A stretch of DNA of 64,000 bases from positions 1-64,000 of IMG/VR virus record IMGVR_UViG_3300037502_001442; one strand, 5' to 3'. This DNA is from a virus. This document shows positions 1 to 54,772 of this stretch, in pieces. The notes beneath the pieces are model-generated. The model worked only from the letters and a program-made list of their open reading frames with translations. It was not told the origin of the DNA and searched no databases. Numbering within the stretch: the first letter of the stretch is position 1; each line of letters opens with the position of its first letter. The position numbers and the translations under genes were made by a program.

Positions 1-55
1 CTGGGTTTAGGGCCCAGCGTCCACGGACTTGAGGGTTCGACCCCCTCCTTGCCCA
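1..55 (+). tRNA. tRNA-Leu(UAG), 5' end outside window
   Basis: The window opens at the anticodon stem CTGGG/CCCAG. Its 7-base loop TTTAGGG gives anticodon UAG (Leu). A short variable-arm hairpin, a T-arm (GAGGG, loop TTCGACC, CCCTC) and an acceptor strand ending at base 55 follow. The long variable region fits a class II leucine tRNA. The acceptor and D-arm lie before the window, so folding is only partly checked. Confidence 0.8.
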
Positions 56-69
56 CTATTGAATACAAT

Positions 70-95
70 GGGTGCGTAGCCCAACGGCAGAGGCA
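70..95 (+). pseudogene. 5' fragment of an interrupted tRNA gene
   Basis: The sequence reads as acceptor GGGTGCG (70-76), TA, and a D-arm GCC-CAACGGCAGA-GGC (79-94). No anticodon arm or T-arm follows; an HNH gene begins instead. The acceptor pairs over seven positions (one G-U) with bases 680-686, which follow a complete T-arm. This suggests one tRNA gene split by about 560 bp. The anticodon arm is missing or was replaced, so the amino acid cannot be named. The HNH gene's Shine-Dalgarno AGGGGA (95-100) abuts the fragment. Confidence 0.6.
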
Positions 96-106
96 GGGGA
101 TGTGCT

Positions 107-652
107 ATGCTATTGCCTATGAAGAATAGAACATGGTCTGAAAAAGAGTTCAGGGAGGCGGTAGCCAGTTCTATCTCTGTTGCGGAGTGCCTTAGAAAGT
201 TGAATCTTGAGCCAGCAGGAGGAAACTACAAGCAGGTAAAAAAGTATGTTGCTGAGTTTGGTTTAGACACCTCGCACTTCACTGGTCAGCGCTGGAGCAA
301 GGGGAAGAAACTTGAGAGACGCGGAGCCCCGTTGCCCACAATCTTGACTGTGGACAGTTATTACAACTCGTGCAGATTACGCAAGAGGCTGATATCTGAG
401 GGGATAAAAGAAAAAAAGTGCGAGTCATGCGGTGGAACGGAATGGATGGGGGTGGCTATCCCGTTGGAACTGGAACACATAAATGGCAACAACACGGACA
501 ATAGAATTGAGAATCTCAAAATACTTTGCCCCAACTGTCATGCTTTGACCTCAACCTATAGGGGCAAAAACAAGAGGGCTAGTGGTGGAATGGCATACAC
601 GGAGGACTTAAACTCCTCTCCCGAAAGGGATGCGGGTTCAAATCCCGCCTAG
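107..652 (+). CDS. HNH homing endonuclease
   Basis: The protein is a free-standing HNH nuclease of 181 aa. A CxxC pair lies near residues 105-108, the central ELEHINGNNTDNR near 122-134, and LCPNCH near 139-144, which is the usual Cys-His-Asn-His zinc/nuclease fold. The N-terminus (about 10-60) looks like a helical DNA-binding segment. The start is ATG 107, with AGGGGA at 95-100; ATG 119 is the alternative. The gene sits between two halves of a tRNA gene. Its last roughly 25 codons run into tRNA-Leu(UAA), so the C-terminal tail is encoded by tRNA sequence. Homing into the tRNA cluster is inferred. Confidence 0.85.
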   Translation: MLLPMKNRTWSEKEFREAVASSISVAECLRKLNLEPAGGNYKQVKKYVAEFGLDTSHFTGQRWSKGKKLERRGAPLPTILTVDSYYNSCRLRKRLISEGIKEKKCESCGGTEWMGVAIPLELEHINGNNTDNRIENLKILCPNCHALTSTYRGKNKRASGGMAYTEDLNSSPERDAGSNPA

Positions 653-656
653 CCTA
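576..656 (+). tRNA. tRNA-Leu(UAA)
   Basis: A complete cloverleaf can be drawn. Acceptor GGGCTAG pairs with CTAGCCT (G1-U72). The D-arm is GTG/CAC. The anticodon stem GAGGA/TCCTC has loop CTTAAAC (anticodon UAA). The class II variable arm is TCCC-GAAA-GGGA and the T-arm is GCGGG-TTCAAAT-CCCGC. No CCA is encoded. It overlaps the 3' end of the HNH gene on the same strand, whose stop codon lies inside the acceptor stem. Confidence 0.92.
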
Positions 657-687
657 CGAAGTGTGGGTTCGAGTCCCACCGCACCTA
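657..687 (+). pseudogene. 3' fragment of the interrupted tRNA gene
   Basis: Directly after tRNA-Leu(UAA) comes a variable-loop-like CGAAGT, a perfect T-arm (GTGGG, TTCGAGT, CCCAC; 663-679), acceptor strand CGCACCT (680-686) and discriminator A. No D-arm or anticodon arm precedes it. The acceptor strand is complementary to 70-76. Its T-arm is identical to that of the adjacent tRNA-Lys, so recombination between tRNA genes is another possible origin. Confidence 0.6.
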
Positions 688-690
688 CGA

Positions 691-763
691 CTCCCTCTAA
701 CTCAATTGGCAGAGTAACGGGCTTTTAACCCGAGAGTTGTGGGTTCGAGTCCCACGGGGGAGA
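691..763 (+). tRNA. tRNA-Lys(UUU)
   Basis: Acceptor CTCCCTC pairs with GGGGGAG. The D-arm is ACTC/GAGT. The anticodon loop CTTTTAA gives UUU, and the T-arm is GTGGG-TTCGAGT-CCCAC. The outermost anticodon-stem pair is A-A and does not form. It ends 27 bases before the terminase start codon. Confidence 0.9.
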
Positions 764-769
764 CTAATG

Positions 770-775
770 TAAAAT
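770..775 (+). promoter_or_regulatory. possible -10 box upstream of terL
   Basis: TAAAAT lies 15 bases before the GTG of the terminase gene and just after tRNA-Lys. A start near 782 would give a leader of about 9 nt containing GAGGT. No clear -35 is visible, and read-through from the tRNA cluster is equally possible. Confidence 0.3.
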
Positions 776-790
776 GTCACTGAGGTACAC

Positions 791-2356
791 GTGATCACAA
801 GCGAAGAAGAACTACAAGAACCAGTAGAAGACTTTGGAGAATCAGAGGAGTTAGATGAGACCTCTGCTGAGTTCGTTGACCAACTGGTCAAGCGCATTTT
901 GGTGTTCACCGAAGAGTTCTGCGACGTGGAGTTCTTCCCCTACCAGATCCCCATCGCCTACCGCATTATCGAGTCTGTGGTCATCGGAGACGGCGACGAG
1001 TTGACGGTCACTGCTACCCGCCAGTCGGGCAAGTCCGAGGTTCTTTCTGCGGTTCTTGCTGGGATGATGGTCATTCTGCCGAAACTGGCCCCCATCTACC
1101 CCACATGGCTGTCCAAGTTCTCCAAAGGATTCTGGGTCGGCGTCTTTGCCCCCACCGAAGAGCAGGCAGAGACCGTGTTTGGGCGTATCGTCACCAAGTT
1201 GACGAGCGACCACGCTCTGGAGTTCTTGCTGGACCCCGAGATCGACGACAAGGCCACTGGTGGCGGTACCCGTGGTCGAGGGCGCATCATCACCCTCAAG
1301 AACTCTGGCTCGCTCTGCCGTATGCAGACCTGCAACCCCAAAGCCAAGATTGAGTCCAAAACCTACCACTTCGTCCTCATCGACGAGGCCCAGGAAGCGG
1401 ACGAGACCATGATTGCCAAGTCGATCAAGCCAATGCTCGCGTTCAACAACGGCACTATTGCCCTGACAGGAACCGCTAACCGTTACAAGTCGTACTACTA
1501 CAGGATGATCCAATACAACAAGCGTAGATTCGCCAATGGTGGCAAGAAGTTCCGACCAGCCCACTTTGAGTACGACTGGCGGACTGCCGCCAAGTACAAC
1601 CCGAACTATGCCAAGTTCATCGCCAAGGAGAAACTGAGGATCGGTGAGGACTCAGACGAGTTCCAGATGTCTTACTGCAACCGTTTCATCCTTGAAAAAG
1701 GCATGTTTGTCACCGAGGAGCGTCTGGACCGCATGTATGACGAGTCCATGCCCCTCGTCAAGGAGTGGTGGCGCACCCCCATTGTGGCTGGCATCGACGT
1801 TGCCCGATCCAACGACTCCACGGTCGTCACGGCGGTCTGGGTCGACTGGGACCATCCAGACCCGTTCGGCTTCTACGAGCACCGAGTCCTCAACTGGCTG
1901 GAGATCAACAATGAGGAGTGGGAGTCCCAGTACTTCCATATCATCGACTTCTTGAGGCGCTATGACGTCCTGAGGGTGGGGGTGGACGCACAAGGCGTCG
2001 GAGGCGCTGTGGCTGAGCGCCTCGGCCTCCTACTGCCCAATATCGAGGTCTTGCCCATCTCGTCAGATTCCAAGGCCCAGAACGAGCGATGGGTGCACCT
2101 GACGGAACTTATCCAGCGAGACCAGTTGATCATCCCTGGTCATTCCAAGGCCCGTCGTACCAGAACCTGGAAACGGTTCAACCAGCAGATGTCGGACCTG
2201 GAGAAGGTCTACAAGGGCCCCTATTTGCTAGCGGCCGCGCCTGACGAGAGGGGCGCCTTTGACGACTACCCCGACTCCCTGGCCATTGCCTGTTATATGA
2301 CTGTTCAGGACACAATGCCCATGATTCAGGAGTCCAACAGCCCCTTCTTCGGATAG
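791..2356 (+). CDS. terL: Terminase large subunit
   Basis: This is the ATPase-nuclease that packages DNA into proheads. Walker A RQSGKS lies near residues 77-82 and Walker B FVLIDEAQE near 193-201. The C-terminal RNase H-like nuclease shows acidic positions at GIDVARSND (about 334), VGVDAQG (about 396) and DYPDSLA (about 491). Its 521 aa length is normal for the family. The start is GTG 791, with GAGGT 6 nt upstream. No small terminase subunit is recognised next to it; the small HTH protein at 5052 is a possible candidate. Confidence 0.95.
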   Translation: MITSEEELQEPVEDFGESEELDETSAEFVDQLVKRILVFTEEFCDVEFFPYQIPIAYRIIESVVIGDGDELTVTATRQSGKSEVLSAVLAGMMVILPKLAPIYPTWLSKFSKGFWVGVFAPTEEQAETVFGRIVTKLTSDHALEFLLDPEIDDKATGGGTRGRGRIITLKNSGSLCRMQTCNPKAKIESKTYHFVLIDEAQEADETMIAKSIKPMLAFNNGTIALTGTANRYKSYYYRMIQYNKRRFANGGKKFRPAHFEYDWRTAAKYNPNYAKFIAKEKLRIGEDSDEFQMSYCNRFILEKGMFVTEERLDRMYDESMPLVKEWWRTPIVAGIDVARSNDSTVVTAVWVDWDHPDPFGFYEHRVLNWLEINNEEWESQYFHIIDFLRRYDVLRVGVDAQGVGGAVAERLGLLLPNIEVLPISSDSKAQNERWVHLTELIQRDQLIIPGHSKARRTRTWKRFNQQMSDLEKVYKGPYLLAAAPDERGAFDDYPDSLAIACYMTVQDTMPMIQESNSPFFG

Positions 2357-2369
2357 CCGTCCGCAAAGA

Positions 2370-2378
2370 TGGTATTCT
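2370..2378 (+). promoter_or_regulatory. extended -10 promoter TGGTATTCT
   Basis: A TGn extended -10 (TGG-TATTCT) lies in the terL-to-2418 gap. The expected start near 2385 gives a leader of about 33 nt. The same TGGTATnnT form and leader length precede the portal gene (7903), suggesting a shared late-promoter type. No -35 is evident. Confidence 0.4.
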
Positions 2379-2417
2379 TGTATCAAGTCACAACCCCCCT
2401 ATTGGAGGATTAACACA

Positions 2418-2819
2418 GTGAATGTTTCACCTGCACCCATGTTCCCCGAGAAGTCGCCCACGGTGTTCGAGCGCTCGCTTGCGCCGAGCATCCCCATGAA
2501 CAAGGGCCCGCTTCGTTTCGAGGAGGGCGTTGCCACCGACACCGACGTGCCGCGTGACTTCGCTCAGGGCGCGTACATGGACACCGCTCCGTCGCCCGTG
2601 CGAATGAACCACAACAACCCCGAGATGTTCTACAAGTGGCCTGAGCAGACCATGGCCGAGCGTGCCCACGTTGGCGCGGCGACCTGGATCGAGGCACCGA
2701 CGGTTCTCTCCGAGTTCGTTCAGGGTTCGGTTGCTGGCGACGGCATGCCGTACTTCGAGTACGAGTACAACACGGGTGGCCACATGAACCGCCCGAACCC
2801 GACCGTCGTCTGGGACTGA
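2418..2819 (+). CDS. Unknown protein, virion-region
   Basis: A 133-aa protein rich in Pro, Met and acidic residues, with no membrane segment and no recognised domain. The start is GTG 2418, with a strong GGAGGA (2404-2409). It lies between the terminase and other unknown genes of the packaging region, so a structural or packaging-accessory role is plausible but not shown. Its composition (short Pro/Asn/Phe-containing stretches) resembles the unknown proteins of the 47.7-52.1 kb block. Confidence 0.65.
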   Translation: MNVSPAPMFPEKSPTVFERSLAPSIPMNKGPLRFEEGVATDTDVPRDFAQGAYMDTAPSPVRMNHNNPEMFYKWPEQTMAERAHVGAATWIEAPTVLSEFVQGSVAGDGMPYFEYEYNTGGHMNRPNPTVVWD

Positions 2820-2822
2820 CCC

Positions 2823-3254
2823 TTGGACGGGGGTGACGCCGCCCCCGCCACGACAGGCGATAGCGGATTAACCGACACCTCTAGTCTCCCCATCGCGCCT
2901 GTCTACGGCGGGGCCATGTACAAATTTGGTCCCGCCGTACGCATCGCTCGTAAAGCGTTTATGAGCGAGCAGTTCTACCGTCGTCCCGACTACGGGACCG
3001 ACATTCCCAACCCCTACGTGCCCAAGCCTATGGGACCTCGTGGCGGTATCGACGTTCAGCGCCATATGGCTGGCACTGGCGTCCCTTATTCCGATGCCCT
3101 CGACCTGTTCAAGCCTGGTCGTCTTGACATCGACAAGAAGGCCCAGCCCGTGAGGCGTCCTTCGCGCCCCGTTGATCCTGCACGACAGCGCAAGCGCGGT
3201 ATCTCTGCATACCGTAAAATGAATAAGGCAAACGTCGACGGAATGGATGTGTAA
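2823..3254 (+). CDS. Unknown basic protein
   Basis: Up to 143 aa from TTG 2823; a shorter form from ATG 2916 (112 aa) is possible. The C-terminal half is strongly basic (RRPSRPVDPARQRKR near 110-124), which would suit nucleic-acid contact. The stop codon overlaps the next start (TAATG at 3252-3256), so the two genes are translationally coupled. No family is recognised. Confidence 0.55.
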   Translation: MDGGDAAPATTGDSGLTDTSSLPIAPVYGGAMYKFGPAVRIARKAFMSEQFYRRPDYGTDIPNPYVPKPMGPRGGIDVQRHMAGTGVPYSDALDLFKPGRLDIDKKAQPVRRPSRPVDPARQRKRGISAYRKMNKANVDGMDV

Positions 3255-4759
3255 TGGTTAGGAAAAATATTCCTGATGCTGATTACATTCCTGGGTTGTC
3301 CGCTGAAAACAACCCTCGTAGAGGTGGGACCTTTAGGACCGCGCCTGAACAAAGACAACAAGAGGCTCTAGAAGGTCTTGCTCAATTTGGGGCACGTCTT
3401 CCTGAAAGAGTTTCTGCGGAAATTGCGACACAGCAACGTGTTTTGTCTGGAACAGCGGTCCCCGCCAAGAAAGAAGCGGCAGAAGGTGTGCTACAGCGTT
3501 TGGTACATTTTCAGGAGGCGTTGGGGACGTACCCCACAGGAATGTCCACGTCTGTGCGAGCAGTCGGTGAAGCGGCGCGTATGCCTATTGAGGCGGCACG
3601 CCTCCAGTCTCGTGAAGAAGGCAGACTAATTGTTCCCAGAGCGGGGCTGTTTTACTCTGACAAATTTAACATGACCCGTGAAGCGGCAATGAGTCATTCA
3701 CAAGATCCAGGGCACCTTGTCTCTACTCTTTTGGCCACTCCCCAACTCAGTTCTCTTACAGACCCTCAAACAGAACTACAGGGTGGTTCCGCCTTGTCGT
3801 TCCTTAAAGCGCACGGACACCATGGTTCCGTGACTTTGTCTGACAGAGATGTAGCAACAATCAATAGCGCCCTGGTTAAAAAGGGTGGAGTACACACCGC
3901 CGATTTGGTTCCACACAGCGGAACACACCCGTTGTCTACCTTGTCTCCATCTGTTCTTTCTGGTCTTGCTGTCCACTACAGAGCCGCTAGCCAAGGTAAG
4001 CAGGGAACAACCTCTAGTTGGTTTGCGGAGTCTAAGATCCACGCTCCTGATGACTTATCGGACGCCCTCAATGATTTTGGCAACCTTGGAATGGGCGGAT
4101 GGACAAAAGGTTCTCAGGCTGTTCGTATGTTCGATAGCCCTCACGAAATTTTTGGTAAAAAATCTGAGGGGGGAGCCCATAAACGGCCCTCATATACACT
4201 TAACACTATTAAAAACGCCTCTGACCTATATCGTGCTGGAGTTCACCATCTTCTTGGGAGCATTACTCATGGGGAAGAGTGGCACCGACAGAATCCCGAA
4301 GCCAGTGAAATTCTCGAAAAAGCCGTGAAGTTGCCTCATTGGACAGACCCCACGTATACAGGAGACGTGCATTCAAGCCAATTATCATCGGGCCTACCTC
4401 GTGAAGCACGCTCTGGAGCGGGGGACATTTTGCGTCCAGAAAACCTGTTTACTGGAGCAACAGGCATCCCTAGAGCGTCAGGAAGAAGTCAGTATCTGAC
4501 AGGTGCCCCTGATATGGGATATTTTATTGGAGAAGAGGCGCACAACCGTGTGTCAAGGACAACTCATTTTGTTACTGGAGCAAATGGTGTGAAAATACCC
4601 ACCCCCGTAGAAGTAACCCAAGCCCTTGGATGGGCGGGAAAACAAGCCCAGGACAAGGGAGAAAGCCTTCGTGGTATTCAACGCGCCACTTCAACAGCGC
4701 AAATAATCAACCCTAACGATATTAACCAACTAGCCCCCTTGCGGAAGTACAGAGCGTGA
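3254..4759 (+). CDS. Unknown 501-aa protein
   Basis: A large protein without recognised domains. It appears soluble, with scattered Ser/Gly/His-rich stretches and no membrane segment. Start ATG 3254 overlaps the preceding stop. Third positions are less C-biased than in the flanking terminase and phosphoesterase genes, giving a different codon texture. Size and position (packaging region) would fit an injected or capsid-internal protein, which is only a guess. Confidence 0.7.
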   Translation: MVRKNIPDADYIPGLSAENNPRRGGTFRTAPEQRQQEALEGLAQFGARLPERVSAEIATQQRVLSGTAVPAKKEAAEGVLQRLVHFQEALGTYPTGMSTSVRAVGEAARMPIEAARLQSREEGRLIVPRAGLFYSDKFNMTREAAMSHSQDPGHLVSTLLATPQLSSLTDPQTELQGGSALSFLKAHGHHGSVTLSDRDVATINSALVKKGGVHTADLVPHSGTHPLSTLSPSVLSGLAVHYRAASQGKQGTTSSWFAESKIHAPDDLSDALNDFGNLGMGGWTKGSQAVRMFDSPHEIFGKKSEGGAHKRPSYTLNTIKNASDLYRAGVHHLLGSITHGEEWHRQNPEASEILEKAVKLPHWTDPTYTGDVHSSQLSSGLPREARSGAGDILRPENLFTGATGIPRASGRSQYLTGAPDMGYFIGEEAHNRVSRTTHFVTGANGVKIPTPVEVTQALGWAGKQAQDKGESLRGIQRATSTAQIINPNDINQLAPLRKYRA

Positions 4760-30224: not shown

Positions 30225-30968
30225 ATGAAATACGGGATTGTGGGTAGTGGCGAAGCCACTGCCTCGGTGGTTCACGCAGGTCTGTCAGACCTTCTTTCCA
30301 AGGATAAGAACGCTGAGTTCCTTATCCACGCCAGGAAGTCGCCTCAGGGGGCAGTCGGGGATGTCTACGACTACCTCATCGACAACGAGGTTTCCTTCCG
30401 CGCCTACACCAGAATCGACGACAAGGCGCCCAAGTTGCTCCTCGATTCGGCTCTGGACGTCGTCAAGACCGACGACCCTCTGAAGAGCATCCTCAACGAT
30501 GCAGAGACGATCCTCATCCTGTGGGACGAGAAGAGCCCCGAGAACTCTGAGAAGATTTGCCTGATGGCTGACGCTGAAGGCATCGCGGTCCTTGACCTGT
30601 CTATGGCCCTCACTCCCATCGTGATCGAGTCGTCGGATGAGGCTCCCAAGGAAGAGCCTGCACCGAAGCAGGCCCCTCAGGTTGAGGAAGACGACGATGA
30701 GACCGAGTTCGTGCCCTTCTCTCGTGCAGAACTGGAGTCCATGACCATCGGAGTTCTCAGACGGCAGGCCAAGGCTCTAGGCATCGAGGGCTCGTTCACG
30801 ACTAAGGAGGCACTGGTCGAGGCCATCACCGCCGTCAATGGAGGTGGCGAAGTCGCCTCAGACGTGCACGTGCCCAAGAGCGAGCAGGCAGTTGTGGTCT
30901 GGTATCAGGACGGACAGCCCATGACTGTCCACATCGACTTGGAGAAGTTGAAGCCTCTACTTAGTTGA
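30225..30968 (+). CDS. Unknown protein with C-terminal SAP/Rho-N-like helix
   Basis: 247 aa. The N-terminal about 135 residues start with MKYGIVGSGEATAS and look like a small Rossmann-type fold. An acidic linker follows (about 135-165). Then comes a helical SAP- or Rho-N-like segment (SRAELESMTIGVLRRQAKAL, about 167-186), which often binds nucleic acid. The last 12 nt overlap the convergent Dps-like gene. The function is unknown. Confidence 0.65.
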   Translation: MKYGIVGSGEATASVVHAGLSDLLSKDKNAEFLIHARKSPQGAVGDVYDYLIDNEVSFRAYTRIDDKAPKLLLDSALDVVKTDDPLKSILNDAETILILWDEKSPENSEKICLMADAEGIAVLDLSMALTPIVIESSDEAPKEEPAPKQAPQVEEDDDETEFVPFSRAELESMTIGVLRRQAKALGIEGSFTTKEALVEAITAVNGGGEVASDVHVPKSEQAVVVWYQDGQPMTVHIDLEKLKPLLS

Positions 30969-31394
30969 GGCTGTAAGCATCCAGCGCCACTTCTTGTGCA
31001 CGTCATCACGGCCTGCCAAGAAGTCCATGATCCCCTGCTCGTTCTCTTTTTCGGCAGACGCAATGGCCTTGTTGATGGTCTCGATGACCCCATCGTTGAC
31101 CTTCAGCAGGGCCTTTGCCATTGCCTTGGGCTCAGGCTTGACCTCCACGGACTCAACGGTGCGCAGGTCGGTGAACTTGCTGAGGGTAAACGGGGCGTAC
31201 TCGTCGAGTTTGCGGATGTTCTCTGCAATCGGGTCGATGCTTCCATAGACGTCCCCGTAGATCTCGCCAAAGAGGGCGTGATACTGGTGGAAGTCCTCCC
31301 CCTCCACGTTCCAGTGATAACCCTGGGCGACGAAGGACATTGTGACAACATCAGACAACAAGGTCTTCAGGTCGTCAGATAACTTGCTCACCAC
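30957..31394 (-). CDS. Dps-like ferritin-fold protein
   Basis: 145 aa, the length of a Dps subunit. GYHWNVEG (about 25-32), FHQYHALFGEIYGDV and IAENIRKLDEYAP hold the His, Asp and Glu ligands of the inter-subunit ferroxidase centre of Dps. It could protect phage DNA from oxidative damage or bind host DNA. It is the last gene of a five-gene minus-strand operon and runs convergent to the late operon. Confidence 0.85.
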   Translation of the reverse strand: MVSKLSDDLKTLLSDVVTMSFVAQGYHWNVEGEDFHQYHALFGEIYGDVYGSIDPIAENIRKLDEYAPFTLSKFTDLRTVESVEVKPEPKAMAKALLKVNDGVIETINKAIASAEKENEQGIMDFLAGRDDVHKKWRWMLTASTK

Positions 31395-45711: not shown

Positions 45712-46119
45712 ATGCGTATTGGTTTTACCTGCTCGACGTTCGACTTGTTTCATACGGGCCACGTCATCATGCTTGAGGAGGCCAAGTCCCTTTGCGACCA
45801 CTTAGTCGTCGGTTTGCACACCGACCCAACTATTGACCGCAACTGGAAGAACAAGCCAGTACAGAGCGTCATGGAGCGTTTTATCCAAGTAGCGGCCTGC
45901 CGTTACGTGGACGACGTTGTGGTATACGAAAGCGAACACGACCTCTACAACTTCTTGGTGTCCTACCCCATCGACATTAGGTTCCTTGGCGAGGAGTACC
46001 GAGATCAGTCGTTTACTGGCATGGACCTCGACATCCCCATTCACTTCACTAAGAGGCGTCATGACTATTCGACCACTTCTCTTAGAGATCGGGTCATAAA
46101 GGAGGGCAAAGGTGACTGA
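45712..46119 (+). CDS. TagD-like cytidylyltransferase
   Basis: 135 aa. TCSTFDLFHTGHVIML (about 6-21) contains the HxGH nucleotide-binding motif of glycerol-3-phosphate cytidylyltransferases, and the ISSTSLR-type motif appears near the end as STTSLRDR. Length matches TagD. It would make a CDP-alcohol; a link to teichoic-acid-like or lipid precursors is inference. It is followed with an 8-nt overlap by small coiled-coil genes. Confidence 0.82.
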   Translation: MRIGFTCSTFDLFHTGHVIMLEEAKSLCDHLVVGLHTDPTIDRNWKNKPVQSVMERFIQVAACRYVDDVVVYESEHDLYNFLVSYPIDIRFLGEEYRDQSFTGMDLDIPIHFTKRRHDYSTTSLRDRVIKEGKGD

Positions 46120-46357
46120 TGACATTGTGACCCGACTGAACATTGATGCGGCATGGCTTGAAACTTGCTCACCAACTATTTATCAGGACATCGCAAGTAT
46201 TGTGCGTGAAGCCGCTGATGAGATTGAGCGTCTACGAGAGGACCGCGACAGGTGGAAAGCATTAGGTCAGCACATTTGCGAGTTCCATTACAATTTGATT
46301 CCTGACCACATCCATCAGTTGTTCGATGACTACAACAAGGCGGTGCGTGGTGAGTGA
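46112..46357 (+). CDS. Paralogous small protein 1 of 3 (DDIVTRL type)
   Basis: 81 aa from GTG 46112 (AAGGAGG upstream). It shares the opening DDIVTRL and the motif AADEIERLRED with the next two proteins. It is likely helical. The family is frequent in phages and its role is unknown. Confidence 0.65.
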   Translation: MTDDIVTRLNIDAAWLETCSPTIYQDIASIVREAADEIERLREDRDRWKALGQHICEFHYNLIPDHIHQLFDDYNKAVRGE

Positions 46358-46643
46358 CGACATTGTGACCCGACTACGGGAGAATTGCGACACCGTTTGT
46401 AAGTACGCAACTGTAAACGAGTTCGTGCCGTGCGAGGTGTGCGAGGCCGCTGATGAGATTGAACAGTTGCGCTCCATGTTGCGCCATGTCCTCGGCAATA
46501 ATGCCTTTGACCCTGACGACGACTGCCCCCAATGTCGTCAAATCATGGTGCGTTACGGAAACATTATTTGGCACACACCAATACCTGATTCAGAACAGGA
46601 CAAGGCTCAGCCAATGATTTTTCAGCAAGAAAGAGATGCCTAA
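46350..46643 (+). CDS. Paralogous small protein 2 of 3, with Cys pairs
   Basis: 97 aa from GTG 46350 (8-nt overlap upstream). It opens with SDDIVTRL and has AADEIEQLRSM. CEVCE (about 29-33) and CPQC (about 62-65) could form a zinc site that the other two copies lack. Confidence 0.65.
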   Translation: MSDDIVTRLRENCDTVCKYATVNEFVPCEVCEAADEIEQLRSMLRHVLGNNAFDPDDDCPQCRQIMVRYGNIIWHTPIPDSEQDKAQPMIFQQERDA

Positions 46644-46846
46644 TGACTGATGACATTTTGACCCTGCTTCGTAAGTACCAACCGTACAGCAAACTTCACG
46701 GACAAGCCGCTGATGAGATTGAACGCCTACGGGCAGAAAACGAGCGCCTACGCACAGAGGTTGCTCGTCTTGGTTCATTCATTCACCCCATCGGAACAAT
46801 CACATGCGGAATAGTTGGCGACGAGGCAGAGCATGGCCCAAGGTGA
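46643..46846 (+). CDS. Paralogous small protein 3 of 3
   Basis: 67 aa. TDDILTLLRKY opens it and AADEIERLRAENERLRTEV (about 22-40) forms a short leucine-zipper-like coil. ATG overlaps the upstream stop (TAATG). Confidence 0.6.
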   Translation: MTDDILTLLRKYQPYSKLHGQAADEIERLRAENERLRTEVARLGSFIHPIGTITCGIVGDEAEHGPR

Positions 46847-47392: not shown

Positions 47393-47683
47393 ATGTCACA
47401 AGAACTAAACAACGTTATTGGCGATGTCCTGAAAGTTTCAGGCTCCAGCAACCCGCAGTCCGTGGGTTCACTGCTGGCACGATCTGTTACCGCAGGGCAG
47501 ACCCCCAAGTTACGCGCCATCGGCGCCTCTGCTGTCAATCAGGCTGTCAAAGCGGCCGCGATTGCCCGAGGCTTTGTCGCTCCGAGAGGCATCGACCTTC
47601 TTTTCGTCGTTGGCTTCGACGACATTGAGGGTGAAAACGGCGAAACCATTTCTGCGATATCATTAAAGCCAGTTATCAAGTAA
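47393..47683 (+). CDS. SpoVS-like protein
   Basis: 96 aa spanning one SpoVS domain: VLKVSGSSNPQSVGSLLARS, then AIGASAVNQAVKAAAIARGF and a final DLLFVVGFDDIEG...SAISLKPV. In Bacillus, SpoVS affects sporulation septation and belongs to an Alba-like nucleic-acid-binding fold. Here it may bind nucleic acid or alter host cell division. It follows the recombination genes and precedes a block of unknown genes. Confidence 0.88.
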   Translation: MSQELNNVIGDVLKVSGSSNPQSVGSLLARSVTAGQTPKLRAIGASAVNQAVKAAAIARGFVAPRGIDLLFVVGFDDIEGENGETISAISLKPVIK

Positions 47684-47692
47684 GGAGTTGCC

Positions 47693-48055
47693 ATGGCACT
47701 GCAAGCACTAGCCGCCGTGGGTCTTCGGGCCGTCGCTGGACAAGTCGCCAAGAAGGCCGCTACGCAAGTGGCGACCAAGGCCGCTACTGGTGCGGCCGCT
47801 GAGGGAGCCGCTGGAGCAACCGCAAGTGGCGCCTCCTCTGGCATGAGCGGAACCATCATGCGTTCTGCCAAGACCTTTGGACGTGGTCTGAACTTTGCCG
47901 AGTTTGGTGGCGGAGCAGAGACGCCTTCCCAGCCCATGCAACCCATGCAGTCTGCTAGCCCCGCTGGCGGGCAGATTTATAACACTGCTCAGAACGTTCT
48001 GGGCAGTTCTGCACCTACAACTTTAGATGACAATGATCAAGCGAGGTTTGGCTGA
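47693..48055 (+). CDS. Unknown Ala-rich protein (120 aa)
   Basis: The N-terminal half is a run of Ala-rich helix with KKAATQVATKAATG; the rest is Gly/Ser/Pro/Met-rich and likely disordered. AAGGAG precedes the ATG. It opens a run of 12 unrecognised genes. Its stop overlaps the next start (TGATG). Confidence 0.6.
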   Translation: MALQALAAVGLRAVAGQVAKKAATQVATKAATGAAAEGAAGATASGASSGMSGTIMRSAKTFGRGLNFAEFGGGAETPSQPMQPMQSASPAGGQIYNTAQNVLGSSAPTTLDDNDQARFG

Positions 48056-48351
48056 TGTCTATTACTGGCCCCGACGGCAAGCGCCGTACACGTAGCAACG
48101 GCTCTGGAGCAGGTCGCGGTGACAACCCGCACCGAGTCACTGGCACCTATCTGGGGTACTCCCACAGTGGTGGCCCCAGCCATGACCCGAGCAGTTACAC
48201 CCACCTGTTCTCCTCCCCCACTGGCGGTGAGTCGGACAGCATCGAGCAGTCGTACGGAAGCCACAAACCCAATCTAGAGGTGGGCAAGAAGTACAATCTA
48301 GACATGCGTCCTACCAAGGGCCCCAATAGCGCCCCCGATCCTGCGTACTGA
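48055..48351 (+). CDS. Unknown Gly/Ser/His-rich protein (98 aa)
   Basis: Likely disordered, with a basic N-terminus (DGKRRTRSNGSG) and scattered His/Tyr. It shows no motif. It is coupled to the upstream gene by a 1-nt overlap. Confidence 0.55.
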   Translation: MSITGPDGKRRTRSNGSGAGRGDNPHRVTGTYLGYSHSGGPSHDPSSYTHLFSSPTGGESDSIEQSYGSHKPNLEVGKKYNLDMRPTKGPNSAPDPAY

Positions 48352-48356
48352 CGCCA

Positions 48357-48623
48357 ATGCCCAAGGGTCTTGATACCAGCAGGAGTCTGAACCGCAGGCC
48401 CCCTTCCCGCGACCTAGTCGAGGCCGCTTCTCGTGCACGCGCCCACGGAGGTCGTGTTCTGGCTGATAAGCGGACTGGTGAAATGCACATTGTGAGCCCT
48501 GCTGGCTCCAAGTGGGGGTCGTACGACCAGACGGTAAACCACCTTCGAGGTGGGGATCTTCGTCGTGTGAATGGCGACGATGACATCGTTGACATCACGG
48601 ACACCTTCGATGGCGACCGCTAA
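48357..48623 (+). CDS. Unknown basic protein (88 aa)
   Basis: A possible small folded domain lies at about 18-70 (VEAASRARAHGGRVLADKRT), with an acidic tail. The start MPKGLDTS resembles MPKGKDTR of the 51491 protein. It overlaps the next gene by 14 nt. Confidence 0.6.
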   Translation: MPKGLDTSRSLNRRPPSRDLVEAASRARAHGGRVLADKRTGEMHIVSPAGSKWGSYDQTVNHLRGGDLRRVNGDDDIVDITDTFDGDR

Positions 48624-48768
48624 GAACCCCCGCTCTCGGTCGCGCACTCAGCAAAGGTACGCCCGTAAGCAGGCAGTCAAGAAGAGCGCTCGCCCCGTCT
48701 CTATTGTCGGTGGCGGTCAGGGTGGCATCCTGAGCCCGTCTGGTAACGCTGGGAGTTTCTGGGGCTAA
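48610..48768 (+). CDS. Unknown very basic protein (52 aa)
   Basis: From ATG 48610 the first 30 residues are strongly basic (NPRSRSRTQQRYARKQAVKK), followed by a Gly/Ser tail. It could bind DNA or RNA. The final ATG overlap (TAATG) couples it to the next gene. Confidence 0.5.
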   Translation: MATAKNPRSRSRTQQRYARKQAVKKSARPVSIVGGGQGGILSPSGNAGSFWG

Positions 48769-49268
48769 TGGCTCAGCAGACCCCCACCTTCGCCAACTGG
48801 AACACCCCAGAGCAGGCTCCTGGAGTAGGTACTCAGGTTACGTTTGGCCCTGAGCCGTTCTTCCGCAACTCCAAGGATCAACTTCTCACTGGCTTCAGAA
48901 CAGCAGTAGACGCCCAGTACCCCGACGGGTATCTGGGTACCATGTCTGCCAACCGTAGACAGGACAAGGTCCTCGGCACCCTGAGCCGTATGAACGCCCG
49001 CCAATACAGCCGAGGCGTTCACAAGGGAGAGCGCATCAACACGGGCGATTACTTTTGGCCCGAGGAGTTTGGTAAGTACACGGGCATCCAATTGGAGGCC
49101 GCTGGTCTCAAGTTTGCCCCTCCTGGAGCCGAGCCTGTGCGACTCACCAACGACGGCAAGGTTGGCCCCCGAGGCATCCCCCGCAGTATCGACGACGGCG
49201 AGCAAGCATCCCAGATCAGTCCCGAGATGCGTTCTAGGCTCAAGTCGCTGGCCCCGCGCTGGCGCTAA
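48768..49268 (+). CDS. Unknown protein (166 aa)
   Basis: The largest folded-looking protein of this half of the block. Aromatic and Gly residues are spread through it, with no membrane segment or motif. It is coupled to the upstream gene. Confidence 0.6.
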   Translation: MAQQTPTFANWNTPEQAPGVGTQVTFGPEPFFRNSKDQLLTGFRTAVDAQYPDGYLGTMSANRRQDKVLGTLSRMNARQYSRGVHKGERINTGDYFWPEEFGKYTGIQLEAAGLKFAPPGAEPVRLTNDGKVGPRGIPRSIDDGEQASQISPEMRSRLKSLAPRWR

Positions 49269-49274
49269 ATAGTC

Positions 49275-49280
49275 TAAAAT
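49275..49280 (+). promoter_or_regulatory. -10 box for a likely leaderless gene
   Basis: TAAAAT ends 6 bases before ATG 49287, in an 18-bp gap with no Shine-Dalgarno. Transcription would start at the ATG. No -35 is seen. Confidence 0.45.
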
Positions 49281-49286
49281 AGCCTC

Positions 49287-49541
49287 ATGGCATATCGTTA
49301 CGGGGACAACGGAGAGTACAGGGACCCACACGACGGTCTCAATATCTTTAGGACCCCCCGCAAGCACGACGGCGGTAACTGGTACCTCCCCCAGATGCCT
49401 GACAACAACAACCCTGACTTTGGTCCGTACAAGGACGGGCGTGACCCGTTCAACGGTGGATCAGGAGGGGCTCGTGTTCCCCGTAGGCCCAAGACCCCCG
49501 CAGGCGGAGGCGGTATGAAGATGGAGGTAGGCCGTGAGTGA
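49287..49541 (+). CDS. Unknown Asn/Asp/Gly-rich protein (84 aa)
   Basis: A disordered composition with YGDNGEYRDPHDG and DNNNPDFGPYKDGRDPFNGG. It contains one DPF tripeptide, a motif repeated in the next protein. Probable leaderless start at 49287. Confidence 0.55.
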   Translation: MAYRYGDNGEYRDPHDGLNIFRTPRKHDGGNWYLPQMPDNNNPDFGPYKDGRDPFNGGSGGARVPRRPKTPAGGGGMKMEVGRE

Positions 49542-50196
49542 CCCTTTTGCCGACCCGTTCAAGGACACTGGTTCCCTTTCCTCCCGTCTACATGGGTTCA
49601 TCGGCAGTGTAGGTTCACACGCATCTTCGCATCATGTCGAGCACTTCAAGGCTCGTGCCCAGCAGGTGGGAGGACAGGCGGCTCAGCAGGCTACACAACT
49701 GGGTGGACAGGCGGCTGATCGCGCCGTCGGATTCGCGGCTGACAACCCCGACACCATGGAGAGGGCTGGCGAGAAAATGGGAGAGCGCATTGGTCGTGCG
49801 GCTATCCCTGTCCCCTTTGTCGGAAAGAAGATCGGCGGAGCCGTCGGTCGTCGCGTCGGCCGTTCCCTGAGCGAGAGCGCACAGGCACGCACTGGTGGTG
49901 CTCCGCAAGGATCGCAACCGTTTGACAGTGCTGACCCGTTCGGCGGTGTGGACTTGTCGCGTAGCACGCACAGCGAGCCCAGCATGGCGTATGACCCCAG
50001 TGATCCGTTCGCTGGTAGCCCGTCTTCTCCGCAGGGCGGTTCTTCTGGTATGGGATACGACGCCAGTAGCGATCCGTTTGCTGGTTCCCAGCCCGCACAG
50101 CAGGAAGAGGCTCCCAAGAAGAAGATGTTTGGTCGCAAGAAGAAGGAAGCAGACGCTGGACAGCAGTGGACTGCCCCCGATGACCCGTTCGCGTAA
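49534..50196 (+). CDS. DPF-repeat protein with Gly/Ala-rich core (220 aa)
   Basis: GTG 49534 overlaps the upstream gene by 8 nt. The tripeptide DPF occurs six times: twice in the first ten residues, three times between about 130 and 190, and at the extreme C-terminus (DDPFA). Residues about 30-115 are Gln/Gly/Ala-rich, with a Gly-zipper-like, possibly membrane-associating segment (about 85-112). A basic KKKMFGRKKK lies near 198. Repeated short linear motifs suggest a multivalent binding partner. Confidence 0.65.
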   Translation: MSDPFADPFKDTGSLSSRLHGFIGSVGSHASSHHVEHFKARAQQVGGQAAQQATQLGGQAADRAVGFAADNPDTMERAGEKMGERIGRAAIPVPFVGKKIGGAVGRRVGRSLSESAQARTGGAPQGSQPFDSADPFGGVDLSRSTHSEPSMAYDPSDPFAGSPSSPQGGSSGMGYDASSDPFAGSQPAQQEEAPKKKMFGRKKKEADAGQQWTAPDDPFA

Positions 50197-50199
50197 GTA

Positions 50200-50508
50200 A
50201 TGCCTCAGTACCCCGCACGCCCTTGGCAGTCCCGACAGGAGATGCTCGTAGATCAAGCACTCCAGTCTGCCATCTCTGACCCTGAGACCATCAGGGCGAT
50301 TCGCCCTGTCGTGCCTCAGCAACTGTTCCCGCAGAACAGGGGAATGGCAAAGCAGGAGATGGGCGTTGCAGAAGTGCTCACCGTCGACCGACGCTTCCCG
50401 ACCTACCGTTCGTGGATTTCTGGCGCCCCTGTTATGTTCCGTAACGGCTTTATGGACGACAACTTCTCCAGTAGCAGTCGCTACTCCATGCAGGGGCTCT
50501 GGACCTGA
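50200..50508 (+). CDS. Unknown protein (102 aa)
   Basis: A small protein with Pro/Arg/Gln-rich sequence, ending in a Ser-rich segment and GLWT. It has no motif. ATG 50200 follows closely after the DPF-protein stop, and its own stop overlaps the next ATG. Confidence 0.55.
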   Translation: MPQYPARPWQSRQEMLVDQALQSAISDPETIRAIRPVVPQQLFPQNRGMAKQEMGVAEVLTVDRRFPTYRSWISGAPVMFRNGFMDDNFSSSSRYSMQGLWT

Positions 50509-51269
50509 TGGCCTCTCGTCGCGGTCAGGGCATTTGGACTGAGGGCCCCAACGTCCCCTTCACCACCTACAAGATGCCCGAGGTCAACAAGCCAGCGGTA
50601 GTCCCTCCCCCGAACGTCAACTCTGGTGCTACCCGTAACTATGGGAGTACTCCAGACAACTTAAACACTGTTTCTAGCAGGTACAGGCCGTATCGACCCC
50701 CTATTCGTCAGGCTTTGGCCTACCTATCCGAAGAGGTCGAGTATCTCGACCCTAACACTGGTCTCCTCTATCACGGACGCCCTCCGAGTGGTTCTAGGGG
50801 TACTTCGGGGCAACCTCCCGCTACCTCAGGCCCCTCATCTCGACTGGGTCAACGCTCAAACCCGTTGCCTTTCCCTAGTGGTTCTCCCGCTGGTTCTGCT
50901 GGTGCCCCAGCACCCCCGACCCCTGGTGGCGCCACGCAACCCACGTGGACTTCCATGCCCCCCGTTTCTGGGACACAATCCATGCCTGCCCCGCCGAAGA
51001 AGACCACCAAGACCAGTCCCTTTGGGCTACCCCCGCTGAAAGGGTCAGAGCAAGAAGACCCCTTTATCGCGCAGATCCGAGGGGCAGAGCCTAAGCCCCC
51101 CACCCAATGGGCTGGCCCCGAGGCCACGTCTGATGTTCTTGATCTTACAAAACCATATTCTCCGTCTAAAGCACGAGAGGTAACGGAGGATGCAATCCTT
51201 GGTTTTTTGAAACAAGGCGCCAAACAGGTTGGGCGCAGGCAGGGCTCCAAACGAGCCAAGAGCACCTGA
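50508..51269 (+). CDS. Unknown Pro/Ser-rich protein (253 aa)
   Basis: Residues about 90-170 are Pro/Gly/Ser/Ala-rich and disordered. A basic helix ends the protein (about 225-253, FLKQGAKQVGRRQGSKRAK). It contains SEQEDPFIAQ, one more DPF. The function is unknown. Confidence 0.6.
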   Translation: MASRRGQGIWTEGPNVPFTTYKMPEVNKPAVVPPPNVNSGATRNYGSTPDNLNTVSSRYRPYRPPIRQALAYLSEEVEYLDPNTGLLYHGRPPSGSRGTSGQPPATSGPSSRLGQRSNPLPFPSGSPAGSAGAPAPPTPGGATQPTWTSMPPVSGTQSMPAPPKKTTKTSPFGLPPLKGSEQEDPFIAQIRGAEPKPPTQWAGPEATSDVLDLTKPYSPSKAREVTEDAILGFLKQGAKQVGRRQGSKRAKST

Positions 51270-51275
51270 TACAAT
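51270..51275 (+). promoter_or_regulatory. -10 box for a likely leaderless gene
   Basis: TACAAT begins with the last bases of the upstream stop region and ends 6 bases before ATG 51282. The intervening AGGAAT is too close to act as a normal Shine-Dalgarno. No -35 is seen. Confidence 0.45.
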
Positions 51276-51281
51276 AGGAAT

Positions 51282-51488
51282 ATGGCAGTTAACGATTCTC
51301 GCTCAATGAACAACGACATGCGGCTCGGTTCCACCGACGGCAAGTTCAAGTGCCTGACCCCCGACCGTGGAGGCGATGTCGATCCGACTGCGGCCTACGC
51401 TCGTATGGAGGTCACCAAGGCAATGTTCCCGACTGGTGAGCAATACAGTTTCACTGATCGTCATCCCCTCGCGTCGAAAGGACTCTGA
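51282..51488 (+). CDS. Unknown small protein (68 aa)
   Basis: A polar protein with no recognised motif. Probably translated from a leaderless transcript from the -10 at 51270. It is followed 2 bases later by the next gene. Confidence 0.55.
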   Translation: MAVNDSRSMNNDMRLGSTDGKFKCLTPDRGGDVDPTAAYARMEVTKAMFPTGEQYSFTDRHPLASKGL

Positions 51489-51490
51489 GA

Positions 51491-51727
51491 ATGCCTAAGG
51501 GTAAAGACACCCGCCATCATCCCGACCGCAACGTGCACTTCGCTGGTGACCCGCTTCTCGCGGCCCAGATGCACTTGGTGGACGCCATCAACGCCCCCGT
51601 GCGTGCCCAGAACGACGACTTCCTTCGTCGCGTTGGTGCCATCATGGGAGGCATCTCCGTCGATAGCGACCCGACCCCGCCCCACGGGATTGAGCGCCCC
51701 GAACTTTCTGAAGAGGAGTACGACTGA
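51491..51727 (+). CDS. Unknown small protein (78 aa)
   Basis: It opens MPKGKDTRHH, like the 48357 protein. A short helix (about 18-48) and an acidic tail (ELSEEEYD) follow. It is unrecognised. Confidence 0.55.
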   Translation: MPKGKDTRHHPDRNVHFAGDPLLAAQMHLVDAINAPVRAQNDDFLRRVGAIMGGISVDSDPTPPHGIERPELSEEEYD

Positions 51728-51729
51728 TC

Positions 51730-52068
51730 ATGGCTACTAACCATCGCGGATACGAAATTCATCCTGGAACCGTCAACTACCGCAACACTCCGCGCTTCGC
51801 GGCGGCACTTCGTCGCACTATTGCAAACACCATGACTGAAAACTTTACTGACGACAGTCTTTATGGTGGCTACGTCGGGGATCATGCAAGCGAGGCGCGA
51901 AACTCCGAAAAAGTGCGTAACGCTGTTGAGGCAAGCATTCCCCTCGACTCCGTCCAGGAGACCATCAACTCGTATCGTAGAGATCGGGACAGGGGTTACC
52001 CCAGCATGGTGGATACGACCACCATGCACGGCGCCGCTCAATACAGGGGTCGGTATTTCCCCGCTTGA
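51730..52068 (+). CDS. Unknown protein (112 aa)
   Basis: A mixed, polar protein with Tyr/Arg-rich ends. It is the last gene of the unknown block, followed by a gap with a hairpin and a possible promoter. Confidence 0.55.
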   Translation: MATNHRGYEIHPGTVNYRNTPRFAAALRRTIANTMTENFTDDSLYGGYVGDHASEARNSEKVRNAVEASIPLDSVQETINSYRRDRDRGYPSMVDTTTMHGAAQYRGRYFPA

Positions 52069-52135: not shown

Positions 52136-52603
52136 ATGGCTGAGACTGGATACGAGCGCCTGCTCGTCTGCAAGACCCATGGCGTCATGTACAAGATGCG
52201 CCCATACGACGGTCCCGCTGAGTATGATCAGGAACTCAGGGAACTCTGCGAGCGTCATAACGGGCAGGTCCCTGACCCCGACAACTGTCGTGCGATGATC
52301 TTTCGCACCGACCCCGAGACCGCCAAGAACCTTGACCTAGAGACTGCCCTCAAGGGCAAACTCAAGGAGCACGACATCGTCATCAAGGAGATGCGTGACG
52401 ACCTCAAGGTCGAGGCCCTCAAGTGCTACAACCGTCACAACCGCCCTCAGGGTGGTTGCTCCGACTGGTGCGACGAGTCCAAGACCATCGGTCGCAAGAC
52501 TGGCGTCCCCCCTGCTCACCGCCAGTACCTTTGCATGTACTGCCCCGTGGGCTCATGGGTCGCTGAGCAGGAGCGCATCCAGATGGGGATGTACAACGGA
52601 TGA
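52136..52603 (+). CDS. Unknown Cys-rich protein (155 aa)
   Basis: Cysteines occur at LVCKTHG (about 11), LCERH, NCRAM, KCYNRH, GCSDWCDE (about 107-111) and LCMYCPVG (about 132-135). His and Cys suggest one or two metal sites. AAGGAG precedes ATG 52136. Its stop overlaps the next start (ATGA). Confidence 0.65.
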   Translation: MAETGYERLLVCKTHGVMYKMRPYDGPAEYDQELRELCERHNGQVPDPDNCRAMIFRTDPETAKNLDLETALKGKLKEHDIVIKEMRDDLKVEALKCYNRHNRPQGGCSDWCDESKTIGRKTGVPPAHRQYLCMYCPVGSWVAEQERIQMGMYNG

Positions 52604-53344: not shown

Positions 53345-54772
53345 ATGCGGGTCTTCTTCGGAGGGTCTGAGAAGGGCTCTTATCGGTCCATTCTCCTTAG
53401 CGCAGGGGTCACGAGGTTCGGCCTGAACCTGACCCACTTCCCCATCCCCAAGCGCAAGGAGTTGGACCTCGGGGCCCTGTACAAGGGTCATGAGTTGATC
53501 CTGTACACCTCCGAGGGGGACGAGGACGTCGCCAAGTACGACTCCTTCGTGCGGGAGCACATCGACCATTTGACCCATGTCATCGGTCGCCCCGACTACG
53601 ACGGGCAGTGGATGGAGGACAAGTACGTCCCTATCTGGAACGACGCCGAGGACCTAGAGAGGCTGGTCTGGCTGTGCCAGAAGCACGCCCGAGTCGCCAT
53701 CAGCGACAAGGCCATCAACGGCAAGAACGTGGCCCGCATCGGTCAGATCGGGATGCGCTGGGGCACCCAACTCATCGGCATGACCTCCAAGCCAGACCTC
53801 ATCGAGAGGATGCCTTGGGAGGCGGTCGTCGTGGGCTCGTGGTCCAGTTCGATCCGCTACGGCGAGACACAGGTCTGGGACGGGCACACCCTCCACAGGT
53901 ACCCCGCCCAGCAGAAGGAGAGCGCCCGTAGGCGTCACCGAGCCGACATCCAGAGGCTTGGGGTTGACTACGAGTCGGTCCTCAATGACGAGGTGAACGC
54001 CATCGCCCACCTCGCTGTTGAGTCATGGAAGGCGTGGGAGACCAAGAACTTTGGGGGCTATGACCCTATGAAAGACGACGACGAGATCGAGTTCGCAGAC
54101 CCCTCAGAGGGGTCAAACATTACTATTTCGGGGCAGGCACCTACTGCTCCAAGTGTGGCACGAGGGGTACCCAACATTACTAATAACCCCCTAGAGATTC
54201 GGCACCGAAACGACAAAACATTACTACCAGTGATGGGGGTCGAGCAGATCACCTCGTTCGGTTCGCAAAACGTTGATTCTGAAGGGGAATCTATTGAAGT
54301 TGACCCCGAGAGGGTGCCTGTAATCAGGTACAACGCGAACCCTTTGAGGCAGTGCAATCATTGCTATTTGGCGAGCCGTTGTCCGCAATTTCAAGAGAAC
54401 TCTGACTGTGCGTTTTCTTTGCCTGTCGAGATCAGGACCAAGGACCAACTCAACGCGGCCATGCGTGCGCTCGTCGAGATGCAGGTGGGCCGAGTCATGT
54501 TCGCCCGCTTCGCTGAGGAACTGGAGGGGCAGGGTCTGGACAGCACACTGTCGTCCGAGATGGATCGGTTCTTTGACATGATCGAGAAGATGCGGGACAT
54601 CTCAGACACCCGTGACACCGTTCGTTTCGAGGTTGAGGCCCGAGGGTCCAGCGGTGTCCTGTCCCGACTCTTCGGCGCCAAGGCTGGCGAGCAGGCTCGG
54701 CAACTGCCCAACGGCGGGATGAGCCCCGAAGCCACCGACGCCATGTACGCCGAGATCATCGACGAGGAGTAG
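53345..54772 (+). CDS. Unknown two-part protein with Cys cluster (475 aa)
   Basis: The N-terminal 230 residues look folded (MRVFFGGSEKGSYRSILLSA; WGTQLIGMTSKPDLIERMPW). They slightly recall TIM-barrel tRNA-modifying enzymes, but no catalytic motif is sure. Residues about 245-320 are a linker coded by AT-richer DNA with three AACATTACTA repeats. CNHC, C and C (about 340-359) form a possible metal site, and a helical C-terminal region follows. Confidence 0.65.
   Translation: MRVFFGGSEKGSYRSILLSAGVTRFGLNLTHFPIPKRKELDLGALYKGHELILYTSEGDEDVAKYDSFVREHIDHLTHVIGRPDYDGQWMEDKYVPIWNDAEDLERLVWLCQKHARVAISDKAINGKNVARIGQIGMRWGTQLIGMTSKPDLIERMPWEAVVVGSWSSSIRYGETQVWDGHTLHRYPAQQKESARRRHRADIQRLGVDYESVLNDEVNAIAHLAVESWKAWETKNFGGYDPMKDDDEIEFADPSEGSNITISGQAPTAPSVARGVPNITNNPLEIRHRNDKTLLPVMGVEQITSFGSQNVDSEGESIEVDPERVPVIRYNANPLRQCNHCYLASRCPQFQENSDCAFSLPVEIRTKDQLNAAMRALVEMQVGRVMFARFAEELEGQGLDSTLSSEMDRFFDMIEKMRDISDTRDTVRFEVEARGSSGVLSRLFGAKAGEQARQLPNGGMSPEATDAMYAEIIDEE
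54116..54226 (+). repeat. three direct copies of AACATTACTA
   Basis: Copies lie at 54116-54125, 54173-54182 and 54217-54226, inside an AT-richer part of the 53345 gene. The spacings (57 and 44) put the third copy in a different reading frame, so the repeat is kept at DNA level rather than protein level. Iteron-like or protein-binding sites are possible. Confidence 0.5.

Follow-up and report, generated by a model that had tools for sequence, protein, structure and literature searches.

Among the described systems closest to the locus considered here are the internal proteins of phage T4 (Ip1, Ip2 and Ip3), which are depicted as small, as sharing an N-terminal leader alone, as differing strongly between related phages and lying in hot spots (PMC12373910, PMC9026906), and as often basic (PMC9026906). 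A second group is that of polyvalent proteins, in which 2-15 domains are joined in one chain, described together with T4 Alt, an injected virion enzyme of the ADP-ribosyltransferase class (PMC5512222). A third point of comparison is provided by the Borockvirus-like Streptomyces phages BRock, LuckySocke, Alone3, GiJojo and pSt2308; the genome paper on BRock (PMC7453282) is without proteomics. Here we describe a block of 12 small genes, g66-g77, at 47693-52068 on the plus strand of a 64,000-base stretch of viral DNA (bases 1-64000 of the 71822-base IMG/VR record IMGVR_UViG_3300037502_001442, hereafter the window, with genes numbered g1-g102). We find that a fixed row of conserved genes frames insertion sites with rapid gene turnover, and that many of the inserted proteins begin with one of two unrelated peptide tags followed by exchangeable cargos. 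The reading that we favour, with confidence a little above even, is that the block is a cargo island, whose tag-plus-cargo proteins are predicted to be loaded into the phage head and injected in the manner of the T4 internal proteins.

Gene calling and family searches reveal that the window encodes a myovirus with terminase, portal, a protein in the scaffold position (g16), capsid (g17) and tail genes; sheath and tube genes were assigned by position relative to LuckySocke. Given that the capsid protein has some 60% identity with its counterparts in pSt2308, GiJojo, BRock, LuckySocke and Alone3, and that a WhiB gene is present (Pfam 9e-12), the host is most likely an actinobacterium. Separate gene calling recovers the same 12 tightly coupled, co-directional genes that a first-pass annotation of the window had delineated, with neighbours overlapping by up to 14 bases or standing up to 18 bases apart. 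Third codon positions in the block genes are the least conserved in comparison with the nearest relative, and together with the tight packing and the codon score this pattern makes g66-g77 look real.

Searches with g78 and g70 yielded 157 IMG/VR loci, which were pooled with four from Streptomyces phages; once entries sharing a contig had been combined with the help of a manual list, 127 distinct records were left, the window included. Of these, 59 (58 from IMG/VR and the window, falling into 35 groups at 97% g70 identity) hold all six of what we term the skeleton genes, g65, g69, g70, g73, g75 and g78, and their order is identical in all 59. The other 68 records are truncated at contig ends or are without a detectable skeleton member. 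Among the 65 records with both g65 and g78, g70 and g75 are each found in 65, g73 in 61 and g69 in 59. The distances between skeleton neighbours vary from 147 to 2494 nucleotides for g65-g70, 326 to 3059 for g70-g73, 386 to 1908 for g73-g75 and 33 to 3525 for g75-g78. While the six skeleton proteins are 78-86% identical to their nearest relatives (79-85% for g69, g70, g73 and g75), the eight inserted proteins show 27-43% identity or short, near-N-terminal matches only. A fixed row of conserved genes thus frames sites at which genes turn over rapidly. The proposal that all 12 genes form one complex does not fit this picture, in that four of the 12 (g69, g70, g73 and g75) are conserved and the other eight are quickly replaced, and profile comparison finds no detectable homology between any of the skeleton genes.

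The left end of the skeleton, g65 (47393-47683, +), encodes a SpoVS-family protein (Pfam SpoVS 5e-22; phrog_35646 7e-16) that scores 77.9 bits for the SpoVS domain against a curated cut-off of 24, and its orthologue is found in all four Streptomyces phage loci. This SpoVS-family gene is constant in these phages and in the Streptomyces phages examined. Within the block, g69 (48610-48768, +) encodes a small basic protein (pI 12) that is 79% identical to its nearest relative; g70 (48768-49268, +) encodes a 166-residue protein with matches in 113 IMG/VR stretches and in Streptomyces phages; g73 (50200-50508, +) is found in 121 loci and is orthologous to LuckySocke gene 178 (hhalign 87%, 3.7e-6); and g75 (51282-51488, +) is found in 128 loci, among them the four Streptomyces phage loci, and in a Streptomyces genome. 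The right end, g78 (52136-52603, +), encodes a conserved Cys-containing protein with 114 confirmed IMG/VR stretches, which is also found in Streptomyces phages by profile and has no family match in PHROG and Pfam scans. An alignment of 43 g70 sequences has 49 invariant columns, yet AlphaFold2 returns no compact or confident fold for it (pLDDT 55, pTM 0.17; the alignment is narrow). This low confidence in the face of strong conservation suggests, as a hint only given the narrow alignment, that g70 might be extended and take up its fold on a partner.

The Borockvirus-like phages resemble the window lineage in that the skeleton row is at least partly kept: in the four fetched genomes g65, g70, g75 and g78 were found directly and g73 by profile, in unchanged order. 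They differ in what lies between, in that g65 and g70 are separated by only two small genes in three of these genomes and by three in GiJojo, and g73 and g75 by one; all are annotated as hypothetical, and those examined are without either of the tags described below. A relative of g70 also occurs in one bacterial genome of GTDB, that of Streptomyces xanthochromogenes JCM 4612 (one of nine pattern-matching stretches was confirmed). It lies within a phage-like stretch (L266) on the 411,800-base contig NZ_BMUZ01000008.1, which has homologues of the LuckySocke WhiB, Cas4, SSB, RuvC, SpoVS, g75, endolysin and g78 genes; the stretch is perhaps a provirus or phage-plasmid of the window lineage.

Comparison of the inserted proteins revealed two N-terminal tags. 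Tag A spans 17 residues with the consensus MARGxDT[RS]xHPNRxVxR, and tag B about 19 residues beginning MA[HT][DN]HR[GM]xPxG..., the two being unrelated. In the window, tag A is borne by g68 (48357-48623, +; MPKGLDTSRSLNRRPPSR) and g76 (51491-51727, +; MPKGKDTRHHPDRNV), and tag B by g77 (51730-52068, +; MATNHRGYEIHPGTVNYRNTPR); one further, chance-like match lies on the minus strand at 6186. The first-pass annotation had remarked on 'MPKG-DT' starts, of which there are two, those of g68 and g76; as both belong to the tag A family, the resemblance is a meaningful one. Across 57 ungapped, nonredundant tag A examples from the block set, the information per column is 1.3-4.3 bits as far as residue 17 (2.2 at that position), with residues 4 and 13 invariant, and falls to about 0.5 from residue 18; identity between tag A proteins is 0.47 in the tag and 0.07 in the cargo. 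An iterated profile search, which was seeded from a cargo and drifted to the tag, gathered 107 unique proteins, of which nearly all bear tag A and a few are only distantly tag-like, and 37 tag B proteins align in a common register. Identical tag A residues are written with different codons in 57% of pairs, against 64% expected from g70 usage, and in tag B the codons for the same residue differ in 49% of pairs; the bases upstream of tag A genes hold little information. Since codons for the same residues vary, the tags are conserved as peptides and not plainly as an effect of the DNA.

In the records with the complete skeleton, the tagged genes are also confined to the block. Regular expressions for A and B match 41 and 35, respectively, of 301 variable proteins (shuffles average 0.00 and 0.10). 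The 59 records contain 148 tagged genes, every one of them inside the block and on its coding strand, with none in the 654 kb outside it; at least one is present in 51 records. In 20 whole records the tag A pattern, scanned as DNA, gave 15 matches in nine records and none with the reversed control, and, judged from their coordinates, 14 of these matches fall within the block or adjoin it. The independent scattering across relatives that would speak against a coherent unit is thus not seen, either for the skeleton or for the tagged genes. Two tblastn searches of sequenced phages found no convincing tag-bearing protein, and a literature search did not find the tags described. The g76 protein also carries a 'PxGI.RP' motif, and its best relative match covers 24 residues; that of g77 covers 46 residues (E 2e-4). 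Motifs of the type 'PxG[IM]xRP' occur in 11 of the 301 variable proteins (one doubtful) as against 0.1 in shuffles, spanning proteins with different tags (e.g. L025:5980-6282 and window 51491-51727), and may constitute an additional docking motif.

Tags and cargos recombine, and one cargo can bear different tags. When the first 20 residues were removed, in a set of 107 proteins, cargos behind A and B gave 21 matching pairs at E<=0.01, covering four cargo kinds and shorter motifs (best pairs 1e-16, 1e-15, 3e-12 and 5e-9); with 22 residues stripped, seven cross-tag pairs remained at E<=1e-4, whereas 10 shuffles each gave none. Four kinds of N-terminus precede the cargo 'GTYLG..THxFSAEStGG.tDS', namely tag A, tag B, 'GAGRGD(N/D)' and 'MPTHNGNPVFR'. 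The variable g67 (48055-48351, +) carries this cargo, its 'GTYLG..THLFSS..GGESDS' module following a 'GAGRGDNPH' N-terminus; its AlphaFold2 model is weak, with four strands at residues 27-83 and the lowest confidence at residues 1-23, and a comparison of the cargo structure with the PDB gave no match below E 0.1. Similarly, the cargo of g68 is common to proteins of relatives with other N-termini.

Tagged genes also occur among head genes in other phages. Scanning IMG/VR with a degenerate DNA form of tag A recovered 21 stretches, nine with skeleton genes and 12 without; the stricter tag B DNA scan recovered a single stretch, inside the group. In nine of the 12 skeleton-less stretches the tagged genes are neighbours of head genes with relatives in the window: they lie immediately 3' of g3, which itself follows the terminase (L166, L167, L178, L179 and L182, several of these genes beginning 2-6 bases past g3), farther downstream of g3 (L165 and L175), or upstream of portal, scaffold and capsid (L172 and L184). 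As L165/L175, L178/L179 and L172/L184 are near copies, and as L167, L178 and L182 encode similar proteins, the nine amount to about four independent arrangements. Of the remainder, L183 has three tagged genes 6-9 kb upstream of the terminase, and L169 and L174 have no head gene within the stretch. ADP-ribosyltransferase-like genes lie near the tagged genes in L169 and in L183, in the latter past the terminase (Pfam PARP 2.7e-9; Arr-ms 4.9e-8). In the window g3, the gene that follows the terminase, is at 2418-2819; it is extremely widespread, with at least 588 confirmed stretches, and is conserved in Streptomyces phages. Some block genes had earlier been likened to the pair at 2418-3254, g3 and g4. 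Homology of the skeleton genes with these, as among themselves, was rejected (profile comparison probability <3%), so that the likeness holds for composition alone; other phages nevertheless carry tagged genes at the site equivalent to 2418-3254.

The composition of the block is likewise distinctive. Relative to the 66 other plus-strand genes, its proteins are richer in G/P/S/Q/N/T (fraction 0.43 vs 0.32, p 7e-5), poorer in hydrophobic residues (0.32 vs 0.40, p 4e-5) and basic on average (pI 8.6 vs 6.0, p 2e-4), so that the Gly/Pro/Ser-rich character first noted is statistically clear. The genes are indeed unrecognised: 10 of the 12 proteins searched against PHROGs and Pfam, and the other two against PHROGs only, gave no clear family (the top PHROG match has E 0.66 and the top Pfam match E 0.048, under its cut-off). 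Among the variable proteins of relatives, the 150 longest of 293 cluster representatives (clustered at 70%) gave one weak Pfam match (YpsA, 0.0077) and 15 scattered PHROG matches, a few of them to tape-measure or tail-lysin families (best 3.4e-6). The reported habit of DPF tripeptides is a strong excess, with eight in 1441 block residues (0.26 expected by composition) against one in 16144 residues elsewhere, but all eight are confined to three proteins: g72 (six), g71 and g74 (one each). In relatives DPF is found in 16 of 301 variable proteins (3.85 expected). DPF was hence rejected as a block-wide motif, being clear in the g72 family and weak otherwise.

The remaining inserted genes illustrate the turnover. 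The Ala/Gly-rich g66 (47693-48055, +) has matches in six loci and 35% identity to its nearest relative, and the Pro/Gly/Ser-rich g74 (50508-51269, +) has 27%. g71 (49287-49541, +) belongs to a family with an 'EYRxPHxG' N-terminus. The g72 protein (49534-50196, +), with matches in 11 loci, has an alanine/glycine-rich middle and carries DPF near both of its ends; its best match, in L012, and same-site proteins of L064 and L081 likewise have DPF at either end. The suggestion that at least two genes have promoters of their own stands for g75 by comparison of relatives; sigma-70 two-box sites are at chance (one found, on the minus strand, with 1.6 expected), as are terminators. Of 59 distinct sequences from upstream of g75 in relatives, 35 have a TANNNT box 3-9 bases 5' of the ATG (51282 in the window), compared with 0/58 for g70, 4/63 for g73, 1/56 for g78, 2/54 for g65 and 7/52 for g69, and GATACAATAG (51262-51281, +) directly precedes that ATG in the window, making a leaderless promoter for g75 probable. 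A similar candidate box also precedes g71.

Peptide-level conservation of the tags, tag swapping, confinement to the block, the head-module position in other phages and the basic character of the block proteins together argue for head loading, and the ADP-ribosyltransferase-like genes near tagged genes in two relatives, of the same class as T4 Alt, for injected effectors. Under this proposal the tag would serve as an address for docking to a conserved partner of the phage (for instance g70 or g73 of the skeleton, or else scaffold or capsid), through which the tagged proteins would be loaded as the head assembles. They would then enter the cell alongside the DNA and act on the host in anti-defence or takeover, with the conserved and apparently unfolded skeleton proteins serving as co-packaged partners or as a loading hub. 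The genes do not look like random hypotheticals, and the original surmise of a virion-internal or host-directed role remains the best guess.

Like the T4 internal proteins, the tagged proteins are small, have a short N-terminal leader in common and are otherwise unrelated. The differences are that there are here at least two unrelated tags, with cargos found behind either and a conserved gene row around them, and that there is no recognised prohead protease, packaging itself being inferred. No T4 internal-protein family appears among the Pfam and PHROG matches of the 150 of 293 cluster representatives scanned, although short leaders could escape such models. We do not place the block in the T4 family, since no relation emerged at the sequence level and a protease step is not supported. 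With polyvalent and other injected effectors (Alt, DdrB, MuF fusions) it shares effector modules near head genes and, in two relatives, ADP-ribosyltransferase modules; here, however, most modules are short proteins of their own that share a tag, and scans of block proteins and of the variable proteins of relatives found no domains, let alone the several of a polyvalent chain.

Several observations weigh against head loading. The tagged genes of the window are not in its own head module, where g4 occupies the site after g3, and the 80 g3 loci closest to that of the window are without a convincing tagged gene at that site (the single regex match was judged chance, shuffles giving two in three rounds). 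Eight of the 59 records have no tag detected by regex, and one record (G009) has a tag A gene about 24 kb from g70. Skeleton genes occur without either tag in the Streptomyces phages and in the provirus-like locus of S. xanthochromogenes. Three tagged or inserted proteins of the window are not basic (g72 pI 6.3, g75 6.5, g76 5.2), and the Pfam and PHROG scans assign no activity to the cargos of the window or of relatives. Between portal and capsid, neither the LuckySocke annotation nor the search of the window shows a prohead protease, so that tag removal of the T4 kind seems unlikely. Finally, g65 and the genes next to it on the upstream side are nucleic-acid genes, which could indicate an intracellular role.

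The strongest rival, which we nevertheless hold to be unlikely, builds on that last point: the infected cell would produce the tagged proteins, but these would at no point be packaged; the tag would bind a host or phage complex (for instance the adjacent replication or nuclease machinery, or SpoVS), and the varying cargo would block host defences. The neighbouring resolvase, Cas4-like nuclease and SpoVS genes, the separation of the block from the head genes in the window phage and the promoter for one skeleton gene within it are in keeping with such an island. It sits less easily with the same tag in the head module of other phages, with the basic, low-hydrophobic composition, and with a common N-terminal leader on unrelated small proteins, which is the T4 packaging pattern (PMC12373910); composition and head-module positions tilt the balance towards packaging without deciding it. 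A less probable alternative still is that the genes encode minor capsid, neck or lysis-associated components with variable inserts, not injected effectors. The high conservation of the skeleton, as in the invariant columns of g70, the peptidase, hydrolase and endolysin genes that follow the block in Streptomyces phages, and the few tape-measure and tail-lysin matches would suit it, but the number and kind of inserts vary by record, as the spacing of g65-g70, g70-g73 and g73-g75 attests, and the cargos have no common length or sequence beyond a sharp tag boundary. The notion that DNA at the gene starts aids recombination or translation while the peptide is inert is close to refuted and highly improbable, for although cargo swapping does occur and early codons are biased (GAA in 24/24 at residue 5; Ala 2 as GCA or GCT only), same-residue tag codons differ nearly as often as expected without DNA constraint and the upstream bases hold little information.

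Elsewhere in the window, a ferritin-like gene (30957-31394, -; Pfam 1.9e-17), which possibly encodes a Dps, lies within a small minus-strand cluster. A homologue of tRNA-guanine transglycosylase, g81 (53345-54772; phrog_887 8e-36), matches a GiJojo gene annotated as dpdA-like and hints at a modified-base system. Three adjacent small genes at 46112-46846 share a similar 'DDIVTRLR...AADEIERLR' pattern and resemble local duplicates.

More broadly, we tentatively suggest, at less than even confidence, that a large group of uncultured actinobacterial myoviruses may load head cargo by tags without detectable sequence relation to T4 and apparently without a prohead protease, through two or more interchangeable N-terminal tags, a changing stock of small effectors and a conserved, disordered hub of g69, g70, g73 and g75 that would carry them. 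Should the tags instead act within the cell, they would still reveal about a hundred short phage proteins missed by ordinary family searches. If they are packaging addresses, the 17-residue pattern would become a search key to the proteins that an entire lineage of phages injects, the role that the T4 leader has for T-even phages. It would thereby yield a list of candidate anti-defence proteins for use against actinobacterial hosts, and the system would represent a second, apparently independent case of tag-directed loading of the phage head.

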